Of a DNA stretch of 64,000 bases, positions 46,419 through 53,019 are shown piece by piece. The notes beneath the pieces are model-generated. The model did no database searches. It worked only from the letters and a program-made list of their open reading frames with translations, and was not told the DNA's origin. This stretch comes from Piscinibacter sp. XHJ-5 (GTDB lineage Bacteria > Pseudomonadota > Gammaproteobacteria > Burkholderiales > Burkholderiaceae_C). A program made the position numbers and the translations under genes. The stretch spans positions 1,054,001 to 1,118,000 of the forward strand of contig NZ_CP123228.1 of NCBI RefSeq assembly GCF_029855045.1. The letters are read 5' to 3'. Numbering within the stretch: the stretch's first letter is position 1; every line of letters begins with the position of its first letter.

Positions 46419-49400
46419 TCATGCCTTCCGGCGCGTCGTCTTGCGAGCCGTCTTGCGCGGTGGACTCGCACGCCTGGCCGGCGCCGCGCGCTCGGGCTTC
46501 GTCTCGGGCACAGGGAGCAGCAACTGGGCGTCGGCGTCCGAGGCGACGCTCAGCCGGTCGGCCAGCAGGTCGAGCCGCGCGCTCACCGACTTGGCCGCGC
46601 TCACGCTGCCTGCCGTCTCGTAGGCGCGATGGAGCAGCGCCATCAGCCGGATCTGCTTGACCACCGAGTCCCGCTCACGCGGGGTGACGATCGCGCTCTG
46701 CAGCGCATCGTCGTAGCCGGCGACCAGGCCTTCCAGCGCGGCGTCGCTGCCGCTGGCCGCAGCGGCGAGCGAGTCGTCGAGCAAGGCGGTGACCAGTGCC
46801 GCGTCGGCCACCATCGTCGAGTTGTAGGCATCGGGCATCTCGGCGAATGCGGCGTTGGCGGCCGCCGCGCAGCGCTGCGCGTGGGCCACGTACGCCAGGC
46901 GCTCGTCGGGCTGCGCGCTCAAGGACCAGAGGAACAGCCAGTTGAGTGTCTGGTACGGACGGATGTCCTTGTCCCCGAGCTTGCTGGCCATCGCCTGGTA
47001 GGCCTGGCTGCTGTGCTCGAGCGCGTCGGCCATCAGCGTGAACTCGGTCTGCTTGCCGGTGGCGAGGAAGGCACGCGCATGCACGGCGGCCTTGCATTTC
47101 CACGCGCCGCCGAGCAGCCCGGCGCGTTCGGCATTGGCGAGTCCTGGCGCCTGGTCGCGCATCGTCTGCTGCGCCGAAGCGCCGGGCAGCGTGCCGCCGG
47201 TCACGCGCACGAGCTGGGTCAGCCGGTCGATGCCCGCGGCCACCAGGCCGGCATCGTCGGTGGCGTCGCCGAGCCGCGCTTCGGCGTTCGCGAGCTGCTC
47301 GATCGCGCGGATCGGGACCTTGCCGTCGCGGTCGGAGGCCATGACCGCGCGCTGGTAGCACTCGCAGGCCAGCGCGAGATAGTCCGGTCCGAGGTCGGCG
47401 TAGAGCTCGCCCAGGGCGCTCAGCAGGTCCGGCCGCTGCATCCATTGGGACGGCGCATTGGCGAACCATTGCTGCACGCGTGTCACCAGGCGCCGGGCCT
47501 CCCCCGCGCTCAGCGCTTCGCCGCGGCGCTGAAGCTCCTGCCGTTCGGCCTCGATGCGGTCGAGCAGCTCTTCCGGCGCCACGCCGCCCCAGGCGGTCTG
47601 CACGCGACGCGGCGGGGCATCGGCCTTGGGATCGGCCCGCCAGCCGGGATCGCCATACGCCTGGTATGCGCCCCAGGTGATGCTCGCGGGATAGCGGTCC
47701 CAGGTGACGCAGCGCGCCTGGAACACCGCCTCGCCGAACGTGAGGTTGTCGGCCAGCAGCCGGTCGTAGAAGGTCTCGGCGAAGAGGCTCGCCGGTGCGT
47801 CTTCCACGGCCCAGCCCGCCACGACGACCGCACGCACGCCGATGTCGATGAGCTGGCGTGCCACGCTGTAGGCGAGCTTGTTGAACGCCACGGGCGAGCG
47901 GTCGACCTTGCCGAGGTGGCAGCAGTTGAGGAACACGAGGTCGGGCACGATCTCCATCGCATCGATCTCGGCCGCGGTGATCATGAGGCCGTCGGACAGC
48001 ATCACGCCGCTGCGCGCCCGGTCGTCGGCCGCGTTCTCGTCGTAGAGGCCGTGTCCGGCGACGTGGACGATGCGGTACGGATGCCGGTAAAGCCGATTCA
48101 CCACCTCGATCGCGGGCTGGTGGCTGCCGATGACGCGCTCCACCTCGAAGCCATGTCGCGCCAGGCTGTCCGTGACGGTGGCGGCTTCCTTCTCGGCAGC
48201 AGGCAGATCGTCGAGCGCGGTGAGCCCGCCGAGCTTCGGGTCGGGAAAGGCCTTGTAGAAGCCCTCGGTCGAGGGATTGCCCACGACATACGCGCGCCGC
48301 TCCATCGTGTGGCCGACACGCGCACGGAACTGCATCGACGAGAGCTGGCGAACCATCGCCGTGCGCGTGGCGAGCGGCTTGTCGTCGGCAAGCATCAGCT
48401 CCCAGGGCAGGTTCGCGGTGTAACCGTCGAGCACGAACACCATCTGCTGCATCTGCCGCGCCGCGTCCTTGAAGTCGTGCGGCACCAGCAGCTGGAACAG
48501 CGTGCGGCTGAAGTCCGGGTCGTAGCGCTGCACCATCACCTGGCGCTCGACGATGCTCTCCACCAGCTGGGGCTGGCGCTGGTGCACCACCGATTCGGCG
48601 CGGGCGCGCTGCCCGAGGTAGAGATAGCGCAGGCGTTCGGCGAGGGCGCGCCTGGGCGCGAGGGTCTGCACGGCGGCGCTCTCGTCGCGGTCGGCGTCGG
48701 TGATCATCAGCCGCGGCCAGTACGTCCCGCCGCGGCCGTCGAACAGGCGCTGGCGCATGCCGTCGCCCTGGTGCAGCAGCGCGTCCATGTCGATGCGGCA
48801 CGGGATGCGGGGATCGGCGTTCATCGCGTGCGAGATCTGGCGTGCCGCGTAGGTCGCGGTGATGGCCGAATCGAGGTAGATCTCGACGATGTCGAGCGAG
48901 ACGATGCGCAGGCGCGACTTCGTGGTTTGCGCGAAGTGCCGGTTGGCATCGATGACACCGCTCAACAGCGCCTGCACCGAGTCGGCGATGCTCAGGTTGG
49001 CCGATGAGTTGTAGCCGATCAGCAGCGTCGCCAGCCTGATGCCTTCAGCCTGTTCCAGCCCCGCGGCGACCGCGCCGCTGTCCAGCACGTGGACCAGGTA
49101 GCGCAGCGCGGCGGTGCGAACCGCCTCGGTGAGCTTGCCGACGGTGAGGGAGCCGTCGTACTTGCCCAGGCCGGCCACCACGGCGCCGCGCATGCTGCCG
49201 CGACGGCGCTCCTGCAGACTGCTGCGCAGCAGCACCGCGCTGGCGGTGCCGATGGCGCCGGCATAGAGGCCGAGGTGATGACGCACCGTCAACTCGCCGT
49301 GCACGATGTGGCGGTCGATGAGTGCCTCGGGGCCGGAGATCGCGTCCTGCTCGTAGTGGCCGACCAGGATGGGTTGCGTGACCTGGCGCAGGTCCATGGC

Positions 49401-52349
49401 GCGCACGCGCACGTTGAGCACGTCGCGGGGACGCTCGCGCGAGCGCAGCCGCTTGCCGGCGCCGAAGAGTCCGGCGGCGACTTCGGCATCGGTGGGGTAC
49501 GGCGCCGGACCGGCGTCGTAACTGGCCACGAGCGGCGCTTCCTCGGTGCCGCGCACCGCCGGCGGGCTGGTCATCAGCATGCCGCCTTCGCCGCGGTCGA
49601 GCAGGCCGGCGATCGAGTCGAAGTAGTCGGAGGTGTCGGCCAGCGCGCCGTGTTCGGCCGGCATGTAGAAGAACTGCCCGATGCCGTCGATGCGCCCGGA
49701 GTCCCAGGTGACCGAGCCGTCCCCGTGCGGCGTGCCGAGCATCTTCCAGCGGGTGCCTTCGCGCGTGATGCCGCACGGCGTCTTGGAGGCACAGCCGAAG
49801 ACATAGGCGACGTTCTTCTCGTGCCTGGCCGGCAATGCCGGGCGCGCGCTGCCATCGCGCGCCCACAGCCATTGCGCCTGCTTGAGCACGGCCGCCGACG
49901 GCAGTGCGCCTATGCCGTCGCCGAACCAGAGGTCGCGCATGTCCTTCTTGAAGTCGCCCCAGACGGCCGCATCGAAGTAGTCGCTGCTCTGCGTGCCGCC
50001 GGTGTCGATGAAGCCAGGCTTGGGCAGCAGCTGCAATGCGCCGGGGAAGCCGGCGATGATGTCGACCACCTCCTGCAGGTCGTGCTCGAGGTCGAGCACA
50101 CCCAGCTTGCGCACCGTGTCCGACTTGCCGATCAGCGCCTCGACCATCAGGTGCGAGCCCTGGTTGGGCGTGCCCAGCATCACGAATCGGGCGCCCTGGC
50201 GCTGCATCAGCTCGTCCCACAGTTGCGGGTGGCGATGGATCATGGCGCGTGTCACCAGGCCGCCCATGCTGTGCGCCAGCACGCGCACCGGCTGCAGCGG
50301 CGTGCGCGTCGCGTCCAGCTGCTGCCGAAGGGTCGCGGCCAGGCGGTCTGCCAGCACGTCCAGCGGCTGGCGCCAGTCGTACGGGAACGCAACCACGCGG
50401 TGGCTCGACTCCAGATGGCGGTGCAGGTCGCCGTAGAACTGGGCGAACAGCGCCTCGGCCTCGACCGGGTCCTTCTTGCCGCTTGCGGGCAAGCGCAGCT
50501 TGTCGAGTCCGCCGAGCGCCAGTGCCGCGATGTCGAACCACACCCGCTCACGCTTGTTCAGCCAGAGGTGCGAGCCCATGATGCCGGGCAGGAACACGAC
50601 GACGGGCAAGGTGCCCGCTGTCGCAGCAGCGCCCCGGCTGCGCTCGCGCCGTGCCGCCGGCAGCACATGCTCCAGGCCGGCCAGCGGCTTGAACACCTCG
50701 ATCTGCTCGACCGATGCCTCGGTGAGCCAGCTGCGCAGCGCGGTGCGCGTGACGTCGTTGACGAAATAGCGGAAGTGGCTGACCTCGGGGCCCCGGTCGA
50801 ACAGCACCCGCGTTCCTTCGGGCCGCGCCACGCCGGCGGTCATCGAGTCGGTGTCGACGACGAGGTCGTTGTCGGTGCTGTCGAAGAAGGTGAAGTCGGT
50901 GAACAGCACCCCCAGCCGCTTGAGCCAGCCGCCGCCCTCGATGTCGCCGCTGATGACGGCCAGCCTGAGCCCTTCCTGCACCTTGGCGCTGGCGAGGAAG
51001 CGGGCCATCGGGGAGCCGGGCAGCATGGCTTCGATGCCGGGGACGAGGTTCGGCTTGGTGCGGTTCTTCGCCACCTCCAGCACCACCCGCTTGAAAGCGG
51101 AGTAGATCGGGTTGCCCTTGAACGCCGGCACCCAGCCCATCAGCGACAGCAGGGCGGAGAGAAAGACGTCGAAGTTGCCGCTGGCCAGTCGCGTGCCGCG
51201 CGCGGGACAGGCGACGCGAACGTAGCGCTCGACGCGCGGCTTCTTGCGACGCAGCTCCGCCGCCAGCTCGTGCAAGGCGCTGCGCTGCTCCGCATGGGCC
51301 TTCACCAGTTCGCCGCGGATGCGCTCGCGCTCGGCCGGGTCTTCTTCGCCGAGCTGGGCGCGATCGAGCGCATAGCCGTCGATCAGCGCCTCGAAATTCT
51401 CGATGCACAGCAGATCGCCGACCAGCCCGCCGCGCGAGTGCGTCACCAGGTGCACCGTCGCGCCTTCGGGCAGGGCGCGAGCGAGCTGCAGCGCGTTGTC
51501 GACCGGGCTCTCTGACAAGGTGCGATGCTCGAACGCGAACACCCGATCGCCGTAGCGGTCCTCGAAGGCCTTCCAGTAGGCGTGCGAAGCGCTTTGCAGC
51601 GCATCGAAGCTGCCTGCGGTGCTGGATCCTGTGCCATGGATCAGCACCAGCAACGGACCGCCCGCCGCTTCGGCTTTCAGCCTGGGGTCGCCGGGCTCGA
51701 AGCGCTCGGCCAGCTCGCCGTCGGCGAAGCGGTACAGGCCCGGCTCGCGCTTGAGGCGGCTTTCGATCGCCCACATCAGCGCCTTCGTGCCGGCCCAGCT
51801 GACGCCCAGCTCGGCGTACTGCTCGATGCCGTCTTCAGCCTTCACGCCGAGCCATTCGCAGGCCTTGCGCTTGGCCGCTTCGATGATGGGATCGGCGGCC
51901 TGGCCGACGGTCAGCGTGTAGACCCGCGAGACGATGGAGCCCAGGCCATCGGCCAGCGCGTCGCCGATGCTGCCGCGCATGGCGGTGGTTCGCGGGCGCA
52001 GCGCGCGCTCGAAGACGATCGCCCCGTCGGCATCGACCGCTTGCGGATCGATGCGCTGCAACGTCTCGCGCAGGTTGTCGGGGTGCGTGATGACGGTGAC
52101 CCCTTCGGGCAGCTCGAGCACGACGACCTCGCCGGTTTCCGGCGCCACGTCGTGCTGCCGCTGGCCGGCGTCGGTGGAGCGTGCCGCGGTGGACAGGTCG
52201 AATGCCTGCCCGACCTTCAGCAGCCGCCGCGGAACGAAGGGATCGTCCTCGGCCATGCCGGCGGAGCGCTGGCTGTCCTGGAAAGCGCGGGGCAGGGGGC
52301 CGGCGGGCAAGGCGGCGGCGCGCAGCTTGAAGAGGACCGGTGCAGCCAT
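46419..52349 (-). CDS. Giant CHAT-domain protease with two lipase-like alpha/beta-hydrolase domains
   Basis: A 1976-residue cytoplasmic protein with no signal peptide or clear membrane helix. Domain 1 (about 230-480) is a lipase-type hydrolase: LIHGTGSS at 237-243 and THSRGG with Ser305. Domain 2 (about 580-800) is LCAT/PGAP1-like: [12 protein letters not shown] at 585-596 and AHSMGG with Ser694. Residues about 990-1095 resemble the N domain of M17 leucyl aminopeptidases. Residues about 1300-1560 form a CHAT (caspase-HetF-associated) domain: His1433 in HVAGHG, Cys1477 in FLNCCHLG, then [16 protein letters not shown]. Residues about 1590-1930 are helical, TPR-like, and the last 20 are basic. 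A GAGGAG ribosome site sits 6 bases before the ATG. A terminator upstream separates it from the lipoprotein gene, so it is monocistronic. A protease-controlled lipase of immune or cell-death type is a hypothesis. Confidence 0.9.
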
Positions 52350-52490
52350 CTCATCTCCTCGAGCGCGGCGCAGCAGATCCGGCGACGGGGCGACCGCGGG
52401 CTCGTTCGTTGTCGTGGGCCGAAGGCGCGGGCAGTTGAGCACACGCCCTGCAGCGCCTCAATCCCCTGGATATCACCGGTTCGGCACGCC

Positions 52491-52542: not shown

Positions 52543-53019
52543 TCAGCTCTTCGAGCCTGCCGGCACGACGACCGGGGCGCGCGACACGCGGGTCTTGCCG
52601 CCGGTGGACACGAGGATGACCGCGTCGCCCGGGGCGAGCGTCTCGTTGCCCTTGGCCTGGACGATCGCGCGGCGCTCGCCGTTGCGCAGCTGCACCAGGA
52701 TCTCGACCGCGTCTTCGCGGGTGCTCATGCGCTCGACCGCGTTGCCGACCACCGCACCGGCCACGGCGCCGAGCACGCCGACCACGGCGGACTCGCGCCG
52801 TCCGCCGACGCTGGAGCCGGCCACGCCGCCGGCGATGCCCCCGGCGGCTGCGCCCACGCCGCTCTGGTTGCCCTCGACCACGACGGGCCGCACCGACAAC
52901 ACGGTGCCGTCCTGCACCTGGGACAGGCGCTGGGCATCGCCCTTCTGGATGACATCGGGACTGGTGGTGGTGCAGGCGGCCAGGATGACGACGGTCAACG
53001 CGGCGAACAGCTTCTTCAT
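52543..53019 (-). CDS. Glycine-zipper outer-membrane lipoprotein (SlyB/Pcp-like)
   Basis: A 158-residue lipoprotein. The lipobox is LAAC at about residues 13-16 (VVILAACTTTSPD). A glycine-zipper hairpin follows: GVGAAAGGIAGGVAGSSVGG, then VVGVLGAVAGAVVGNAVE. The C-terminal half is a small beta domain (EILVQLRNGERRAIVQ). Family members stabilise the outer membrane. It has its own promoter region and strong terminator, consistent with a single-gene unit. Confidence 0.92.
   Translation of the reverse strand: MKKLFAALTVVILAACTTTSPDVIQKGDAQRLSQVQDGTVLSVRPVVVEGNQSGVGAAAGGIAGGVAGSSVGGRRESAVVGVLGAVAGAVVGNAVERMSTREDAVEILVQLRNGERRAIVQAKGNETLAPGDAVILVSTGGKTRVSRAPVVVPAGSKS

Follow-up and report, generated by a model that had tools for sequence, protein, structure and literature searches.

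What does a bacterium gain from fusing two lipase-type hydrolases to a caspase-like protease in one polypeptide? The question is raised by a gene in the window, a stretch of 64,000 nucleotides from Piscinibacter sp. XHJ-5, for which a sequence-only reading had proposed a self-contained immune or death switch whose lipases are freed or activated by a CHAT protease domain. We lean, by a modest degree, towards the view that the fusion supplies both protease and effector at the core of a multi-gene conflict system of the abortive-infection or programmed-death type. The observed basis for this conflict-system explanation is the domain content, the intact active sites, a recurrent metacaspase partner and the unlinked copy of that partner kept in the window genome.

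Domain architecture of the fusion protein

The open reading frame runs over 46419..52349 on the minus strand, exactly as the sequence-only reading had placed it, and encodes 1976 amino acids. Its ATG start at 52349 has GAGGAG just ahead, read by eye, and an in-frame GTG at 52442 is a possible alternative start. The parts of the gene are as follows.

46419..52349, minus strand: whole gene; hydrolase 1, hydrolase 2, macro/LAP-N-like module, CHAT, TPR-S and basic tail
51750..52349, minus strand: N-terminal alpha/beta region, residues 1-200, from a structure model of the N half; residues 121-137 have pLDDT <50
50673..51749, minus strand: alpha/beta hydrolase 1 (DUF7379), residues 201-559; triad Ser305-Asp495-His525
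51435..51437, minus strand: codon of Ser305, nucleophile 1; Ser in 142/143 homologues
49566..50618, minus strand: alpha/beta hydrolase 2, residues 578-928; lysosomal phospholipase A2 / LCAT fold, triad Ser694-Asp877-His900
50268..50270, minus strand: codon of Ser694, nucleophile 2; Ser in 123/143, Gly in 20/143
48801..49427, minus strand: leucine aminopeptidase N-domain / macro-domain fold, residues 975-1183; possible ligand sensor
47622..48728, minus strand: CHAT / separase-like cysteine protease, residues 1208-1576
48051..48053, minus strand: codon of His1433; 143/143
47919..47921, minus strand: codon of Cys1477; 143/143, neighbouring Cys1476 also invariant
46494..47600, minus strand: TPR superhelix including the TPR-S (sensor) family, residues 1584-1952; Pfam TPR-S at 1661-1807, LGN/Rap TPR matches
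46422..46493, minus strand: basic tail, residues 1953-1976, disordered and Lys/Arg-rich; pLDDT <50

A Pfam scan of the 1976-residue protein matched DUF7379 (E 3.8e-36), CHAT (E 1.9e-29), LCAT (E 7e-8) and TPR-S (E 3e-6), all four above their curated cut-offs, TPR-S barely so (28.1 versus 27.6 bits). The best Pfam stretches start beyond residues 1-200, and the match rows for the N half are mostly filled by hydrolase 2. The CHAT assignment, for which a profile search had been suggested as a check, is backed by 103.5 bits against a cut-off of 24 (PF12770), by the His-Cys dyad and by fold matches to separase and Craspase. Hydrolase 2 combines an LCAT profile match with the fold and a Ser-Asp-His triad in which Ser694 is intact in the window's protein; we therefore class it as a lysosomal PLA2 / LCAT-type alpha/beta hydrolase with predicted phospholipase activity. 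Thus lipase-type domains and a CHAT protease do share one chain, and the catalytic residues stand where they had been read, within the motifs THSRGG (Ser305), AHSMGG (Ser694), AGHG (His1433) and NCCHL (Cys1477). The helical C-terminal region described earlier proved to be a TPR array.

One module had been missed: a LAP-N/macro-like fold at about residues 975-1183, which was also matched in a homologue. Its fold agrees with a macro domain or M17 N-domain and conserved glycines were seen; it may be a sensor of ADP-ribose or a related ligand. The only other CHAT match in the window genome (G000:C1:4685726-4686670, L050) lies in a 1178-aa protein with classical TPRs.

We also compared linker composition in 26 copies. 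The combined Lys and Arg fraction is 0.148, 0.138 and 0.121 in the three interdomain linkers, a slight excess over 0.112 for the whole protein, and basic pairs occur there in 18/26, 23/26 and 13/26 copies. No cleavage site is evident from these linker compositions, which counts against the conflict-system explanation. Region 1935-1976 is more clearly basic, with a fraction of 0.235 versus 0.112 overall among the 16/26 copies that have at least five residues there.

A conserved family with a variable second hydrolase

A database search, in which 7998 candidates were scored, found 1590 proteins at E<=0.001. Among the matches listed, 118/120 exceed 1700 aa, nearly always with DUF7379 together with CHAT, and the carriers named include Piscinibacter, Albitalea, a Burkholderiaceae bacterium and a Candidatus Binatia MAG. 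The many long DUF7379-CHAT homologues point to a conserved family rather than to one genome's odd fusion. We aligned 143 sequences, namely the 118 listed database homologues of more than 1700 aa and 25 genomic copies, with identities reaching down to 25%. His1433, Cys1476, Cys1477, Asp495, His525, Asp877 and His900 are invariant in 143/143, so that the motif residues are not chance occurrences. Since Ser305 is kept in all copies except one and the CHAT dyad in every copy, hydrolase 1 and the protease are under the steadiest constraint, and hydrolase 1 is probably the more consistently needed lipase, as hydrolase 2 can lose its nucleophile.

The losses of Ser694 amount to four changes by parsimony on a FastTree tree: P0047, P0094, L073 and one clade of 17, with poor support for the node that unites P0094 with its neighbour. 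The L073 copy (G395) has Gly at both lipase serines but keeps its CHAT dyad, and the metacaspase next to it has intact catalytic motifs. To judge by these copies without nucleophiles, some lineages can dispense with hydrolase 2, and even the loss of both serines leaves the proteases in place; this points to the proteases as the core. The same pattern is at odds with the earlier proposal that the lipases are simply effectors released by CHAT, and the L073 copy counts against the conflict-system explanation.

The pattern also invites an explanation in which CHAT and the metacaspase do the work as a pair and the hydrolases chiefly bind lipids or ligands as scaffolds, having become pseudoenzymes in some lineages. 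We regard this as unlikely. Besides the serine losses set against a CHAT dyad lost in 0/143, it draws on hydrolase-free macro-CHAT-TPR-S copies in Rhizobium and in G025, one of the 24 family carriers; yet a pure scaffold would not be expected to keep Ser305 so steadily and the other triad residues without exception, and hydrolase-free copies are rare (0/4 carriers in a draw of 299 genomes). The two hydrolase-free copies had suggested an effector swap. A hydrolase-free query returned the same 4/299 phylum genomes, all with reading frames of more than 1880 aa, and we set that idea aside.

The distribution of the fusion gene is patchy, with carriers in 24/150 genomes of the window's family (E<=1e-30) and 4/299 of the phylum, and the gene was found in none of the phage records at E<=1e-15; the patchiness favours the conflict-system explanation and the lack of phage carriage counts against it. 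Plasmid records contain eight matches to the family. A developmental or stress death programme, rather than an anti-phage function, has been proposed for the conflict systems of multicellular or aggregating bacteria, and excerpts of Kaur et al. 2020 (PMC7159879) tie such systems to multicellularity. Applied to the fusion, this explanation is in keeping with the phage records and with a chromosomal position that is conserved in the window's clade. However, plasmid copies exist, one of them beside restriction-modification-type and recombinase genes, and we consider a developmental role doubtful.

A metacaspase is a recurrent partner of the fusion

We observed a metacaspase gene upstream of the fusion on the same strand in 12/29 genomic loci with readable upstream sequence, defined as at least 1.5 kb; two of the 31 sources were excluded with <200 bases, L083 (G450) and L049 (G003), the N-terminal part of the G003 copy being on another contig. 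A profile built from three seed metacaspases identified 11/30 neighbourhood sources, the three seed loci included, and G425 is the twelfth. One of the 12 linked loci, G025, has the hydrolase-free copy. The gap to the fusion is within about 120 bases in 11/12 and slightly negative in some, allowing for an unmatched N-terminus and with the start of the G025 copy not fixed; in L075 it is about 0.95 kb, with two short opposite-strand ORFs called between. Two of the metacaspases were identified by Pfam scan (Peptidase_C14) and nine more in a genome-wide C14 search, and the G425 copy, which is outside that search, was assigned by its 69% identity to the metacaspase of the window genome. In 17/29 genomic loci there is no upstream metacaspase, and among six plasmid loci examined it was found in 0/6; both results count against the conflict-system explanation.

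One large subfamily holds seven of the linked metacaspases; L039, L072 and L074 form a second, and L043 is divergent. The association has therefore probably arisen on more than one occasion. The window genome has its own metacaspase at 6013565-6014536 (6.01 Mb), 4.9 Mb from the fusion gene. It belongs to the commonest linked subfamily, is 73% identical to the linked L071 copy and is one of six non-adjacent metacaspases that join the first subfamily with support of 99/100, in a tree that is elsewhere poorly resolved, with long branches and part-filled rows. The fusion had been described as self-contained, a protein that would need to sense by itself; the upstream metacaspases and the unlinked copy in the window genome speak against this.

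Co-occurrence was assessed with the window genome's metacaspase as query in 150 genomes drawn from the window's family. At E<=1e-20, a cut chosen after the list had been seen, 17/24 carriers (11 adjacent, 6 not) had a match versus 2/126 others (Fisher p 5e-15, uncorrected for relatedness; the 150 genomes span 141 genera and the 24 carriers 23). At E<=1e-6 the counts were 19/24 versus 6/126. The 5/24 carriers in which this metacaspase has no match at E<=1e-6 count against the conflict-system explanation. Of the two non-carriers with a match, G034 has a DUF7379-CHAT fusion, and in G043 the copy adjoins a glyoxalase gene. To our knowledge, bacterial metacaspases have few assigned partners or substrates; the recurrent and statistically linked partner found here offers a directly testable protease pair.

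A second companion is a protein of about 200 aa without a Pfam match, which we take from its motifs to be SLOG-like. It lies in the fetched neighbourhood of six genomes, on varying strands, and occurs in 8/24 carriers versus 3/126 others (p 1.7e-5). Because their tallies match (133 near-complete, 141 genera), we take the gene, metacaspase and SLOG-like counts to refer to one set of 150 genomes. In the window genome the SLOG-like gene is unlinked (G000:C1:3503098-3503691, 3.503 Mb). The family includes L091:8020-8664 and relatives, and in L046 it is fused to a TPR-S region.

Genomic settings differ between the window's clade and other carriers

In the window's own clade (the window, G002, G049 and G004) the gene has a conserved place beside a TetR/beta-oxidation operon, with housekeeping neighbours and no upstream metacaspase. 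The absence of a recognised defence island around the gene in this clade counts against the conflict-system explanation. The setting raises the alternative that the hydrolases are a regulated housekeeping or storage-lipid esterase pair, active for instance in lipid remodelling, with CHAT as a maturation protease and the beta-oxidation neighbours reflecting this role. TetR/acyl-CoA dehydrogenase synteny in four genomes of the clade and lipase triads that are intact in most copies are consistent with it. Outside the clade, however, the gene has other neighbours and our BLAST grouping shows no recurring lipid-gene cluster, so we rejected a recurrent beta-oxidation link as clade-specific synteny; moreover, the distribution is patchy, and the recurrent partners are a metacaspase and a SLOG-like protein, with TIR and STAND proteins in single loci. 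We consider a housekeeping esterase distinctly unlikely. The sequence-only reading had held that constant linkage to housekeeping genes together with an unconserved dyad would speak against an immune role: the linkage is present in the window's own clade and the dyad is conserved, so that half of this combination is seen.

Directly upstream of the fusion gene, the window has a small lipoprotein-like ORF (52543-53019, minus strand) with glycine-rich repeats seen by eye. It occupies the spot where some relatives have the metacaspase, and a homologue lies in the same place in Albitalea.

Elsewhere, the fusion has conflict-type neighbours at some loci, such as metacaspase, TIR, STAND NTPase or restriction-modification genes, in line with the immune proposal. 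In G464 the run consists of a metacaspase, a 330-aa protein with a Cap17-like match below cut-off, a SLOG-like protein, a TIR protein, an AAA protein with a MoxR-like (bpMoxR) match below cut-off and no vWA match, a 1248-aa protein without a Pfam match, and then the fusion. Six of the plasmid records were examined. On an Azotobacter plasmid the fusion lies near a DNA methyltransferase, a restriction specificity subunit, Fic, a PD-(D/E)XK protein, a recombinase and transposases, and on an Ensifer plasmid a STAND-like NTPase (one BLAST match, E 7e-9) is upstream. In Rhizobium leguminosarum the hydrolase-free macro-CHAT-TPR-S gene stands between two TIR-nSTAND1-WD40 proteins, with a SLOG-like protein downstream and a GH108 lysozyme gene beginning 33 bases after it. 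This plasmid cluster spans L132:2996-17563 (CP050083.1), and another TIR gene follows after about 3 kb.

Three of five Paracoccus plasmid records were examined. In these the hydrolase-CHAT gene is immediately preceded by a gene of about 1090 codons (L133:4244-7528 and L134:4276-7521), which is split into two ORFs in one strain. One of the two proteins scanned has a solute-binding-domain match and the other has hydrophobic stretches, seen by eye; the protein is a candidate membrane sensor.

We then compared neighbours with PADLOC families, using 77 neighbour proteins from ten loci, a sample that excludes the window's neighbours and the later-fetched loci. Matches at E<=1e-5 were obtained for 18 families, caspase by two members and the other 17 by a single member. 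A single 971-aa protein of L042 accounts for seven of these families, including mad3 and mad8, and we doubt a MADS link for this reason; we presume the protein to be a UvrA-type ABC ATPase. A 2036-aa reading frame directly adjoining the fusion at L081:12684-18791 groups with that protein by BLAST. The ten other single matches include PDC-S08 (E 8e-131), ThsB, SAVED-TIR and ZorB, and given these there may be a genuine defence neighbour in single loci. As a count of how often homologues lie in defence islands, the check proposed with the immune reading, the 77 proteins yield scattered single matches and no complete system, which counts against the conflict-system explanation. The fusion protein itself matched no system's defining protein in PADLOC 2.0.0; its CHAT region has a weak BovA match (E 7e-4).

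A possible proteolytic relay

Under the conflict-system explanation, infection or damage would give rise to a nucleotide- or NAD-derived signal, or to a bound protein ligand, and the SLOG-like companion, or TIR or STAND proteins where present, might be its source. The macro/LAP-N-like and TPR-S modules would sense the signal and switch on the CHAT protease. CHAT and the metacaspase may then form one proteolytic relay, in either order, which would cut linkers or a lid and free the phospholipase-type domains. These lipases would damage the cell's own membrane, and growth would stop. In its most specific form, a death cascade would join two proteases, a metacaspase and a separase-like CHAT, gated by the macro domain and TPR-S and equipped with a built-in lysosomal-PLA2-like executioner, the metacaspase being able to relocate within the genome and yet co-occur. 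We put this form forward tentatively, as short of an even prospect.

If true, the two-protease cascade would stand beside gasdermin pores and Craspase as a counterpart that cuts lipids. Should proteolysis release the lipases, bacterial caspase-like signalling would lead to the hydrolysis of membrane lipids as well as to pores, and the fusion would serve as a compact example of how sensor, protease and executioner are put together. Copies with Ser694Gly, or with both serines changed to Gly, occur naturally and could be used directly to ask which part matters.

Relation to known systems

In bacterial gasdermin systems, a caspase-like protease unleashes a membrane-damaging effector. The fusion shares this idea and differs in that its presumed effector, of phospholipase type, belongs to the protease polypeptide itself. 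Unlike lysosomal phospholipase A2 / LCAT and the Tle4 phospholipase effector, the predicted lipase is embedded in a protease/sensor protein. In the type III-E CRISPR Craspase the TPR-CHAT protein (Csx29) has a separate substrate, Csx30, whereas here the lipases are fused. Among the 20 Pfam-scanned neighbours of the window gene, none was named as a gasdermin, as a Cas7-11/gRAMP partner or Csx30-type substrate, or as part of a MoxR ATPase, vWA and VMAP set. With Borvo (BovA), only the protease domain is common. Excerpts of a 2023 review (PMC10952713) list CHAT for Borvo and type III-E CRISPR, and those of a 2024 PNAS paper (PMC10907252) describe a CHAT-TIR target protein in a conflict setting of this kind.

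The closest likeness is to the MoxR-vWA/VMAP systems. According to the excerpts of Kaur et al. (PMC7159879), the caspase domain of VMAP systems is invariably found with an alpha/beta-hydrolase gene next to it, and the same conflict networks are listed as containing TIR, SLOG and macro domains. Both have a caspase-superfamily protease with an alpha/beta hydrolase and TIR/SLOG-type signal enzymes, and one fusion locus has the MoxR-like AAA gene described above. By contrast, two hydrolases, the macro-like module, CHAT and TPR-S here form one chain, with the metacaspase as a separate gene. Since a caspase-hydrolase pairing was already predicted there, the fusion family is a variant of a predicted kind. 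A limited literature search, with incomplete targeted coverage, found neither the fusion nor a metacaspase-CHAT-lipase operon. The single-chain architecture and the specific metacaspase partner are features of its own, absent from the excerpts compared, and we do not claim that they are unreported.

A looser arrangement occurs in two relatives. In L052, from a genome of the window's genus, a DUF7379 hydrolase gene adjoins a TCAD7-CHAT gene (L052:3224-10403), a further likeness to the VMAP pairing, and in L051 a DUF7379 hydrolase is fused to CHAT (L051:7193-13623). Each locus further contains an ORF of about 524 aa (in L052 called on the opposite strand) and, close by, another CHAT protein, of 429 or 441 aa; this may be a separate type of hydrolase-CHAT gene cluster.
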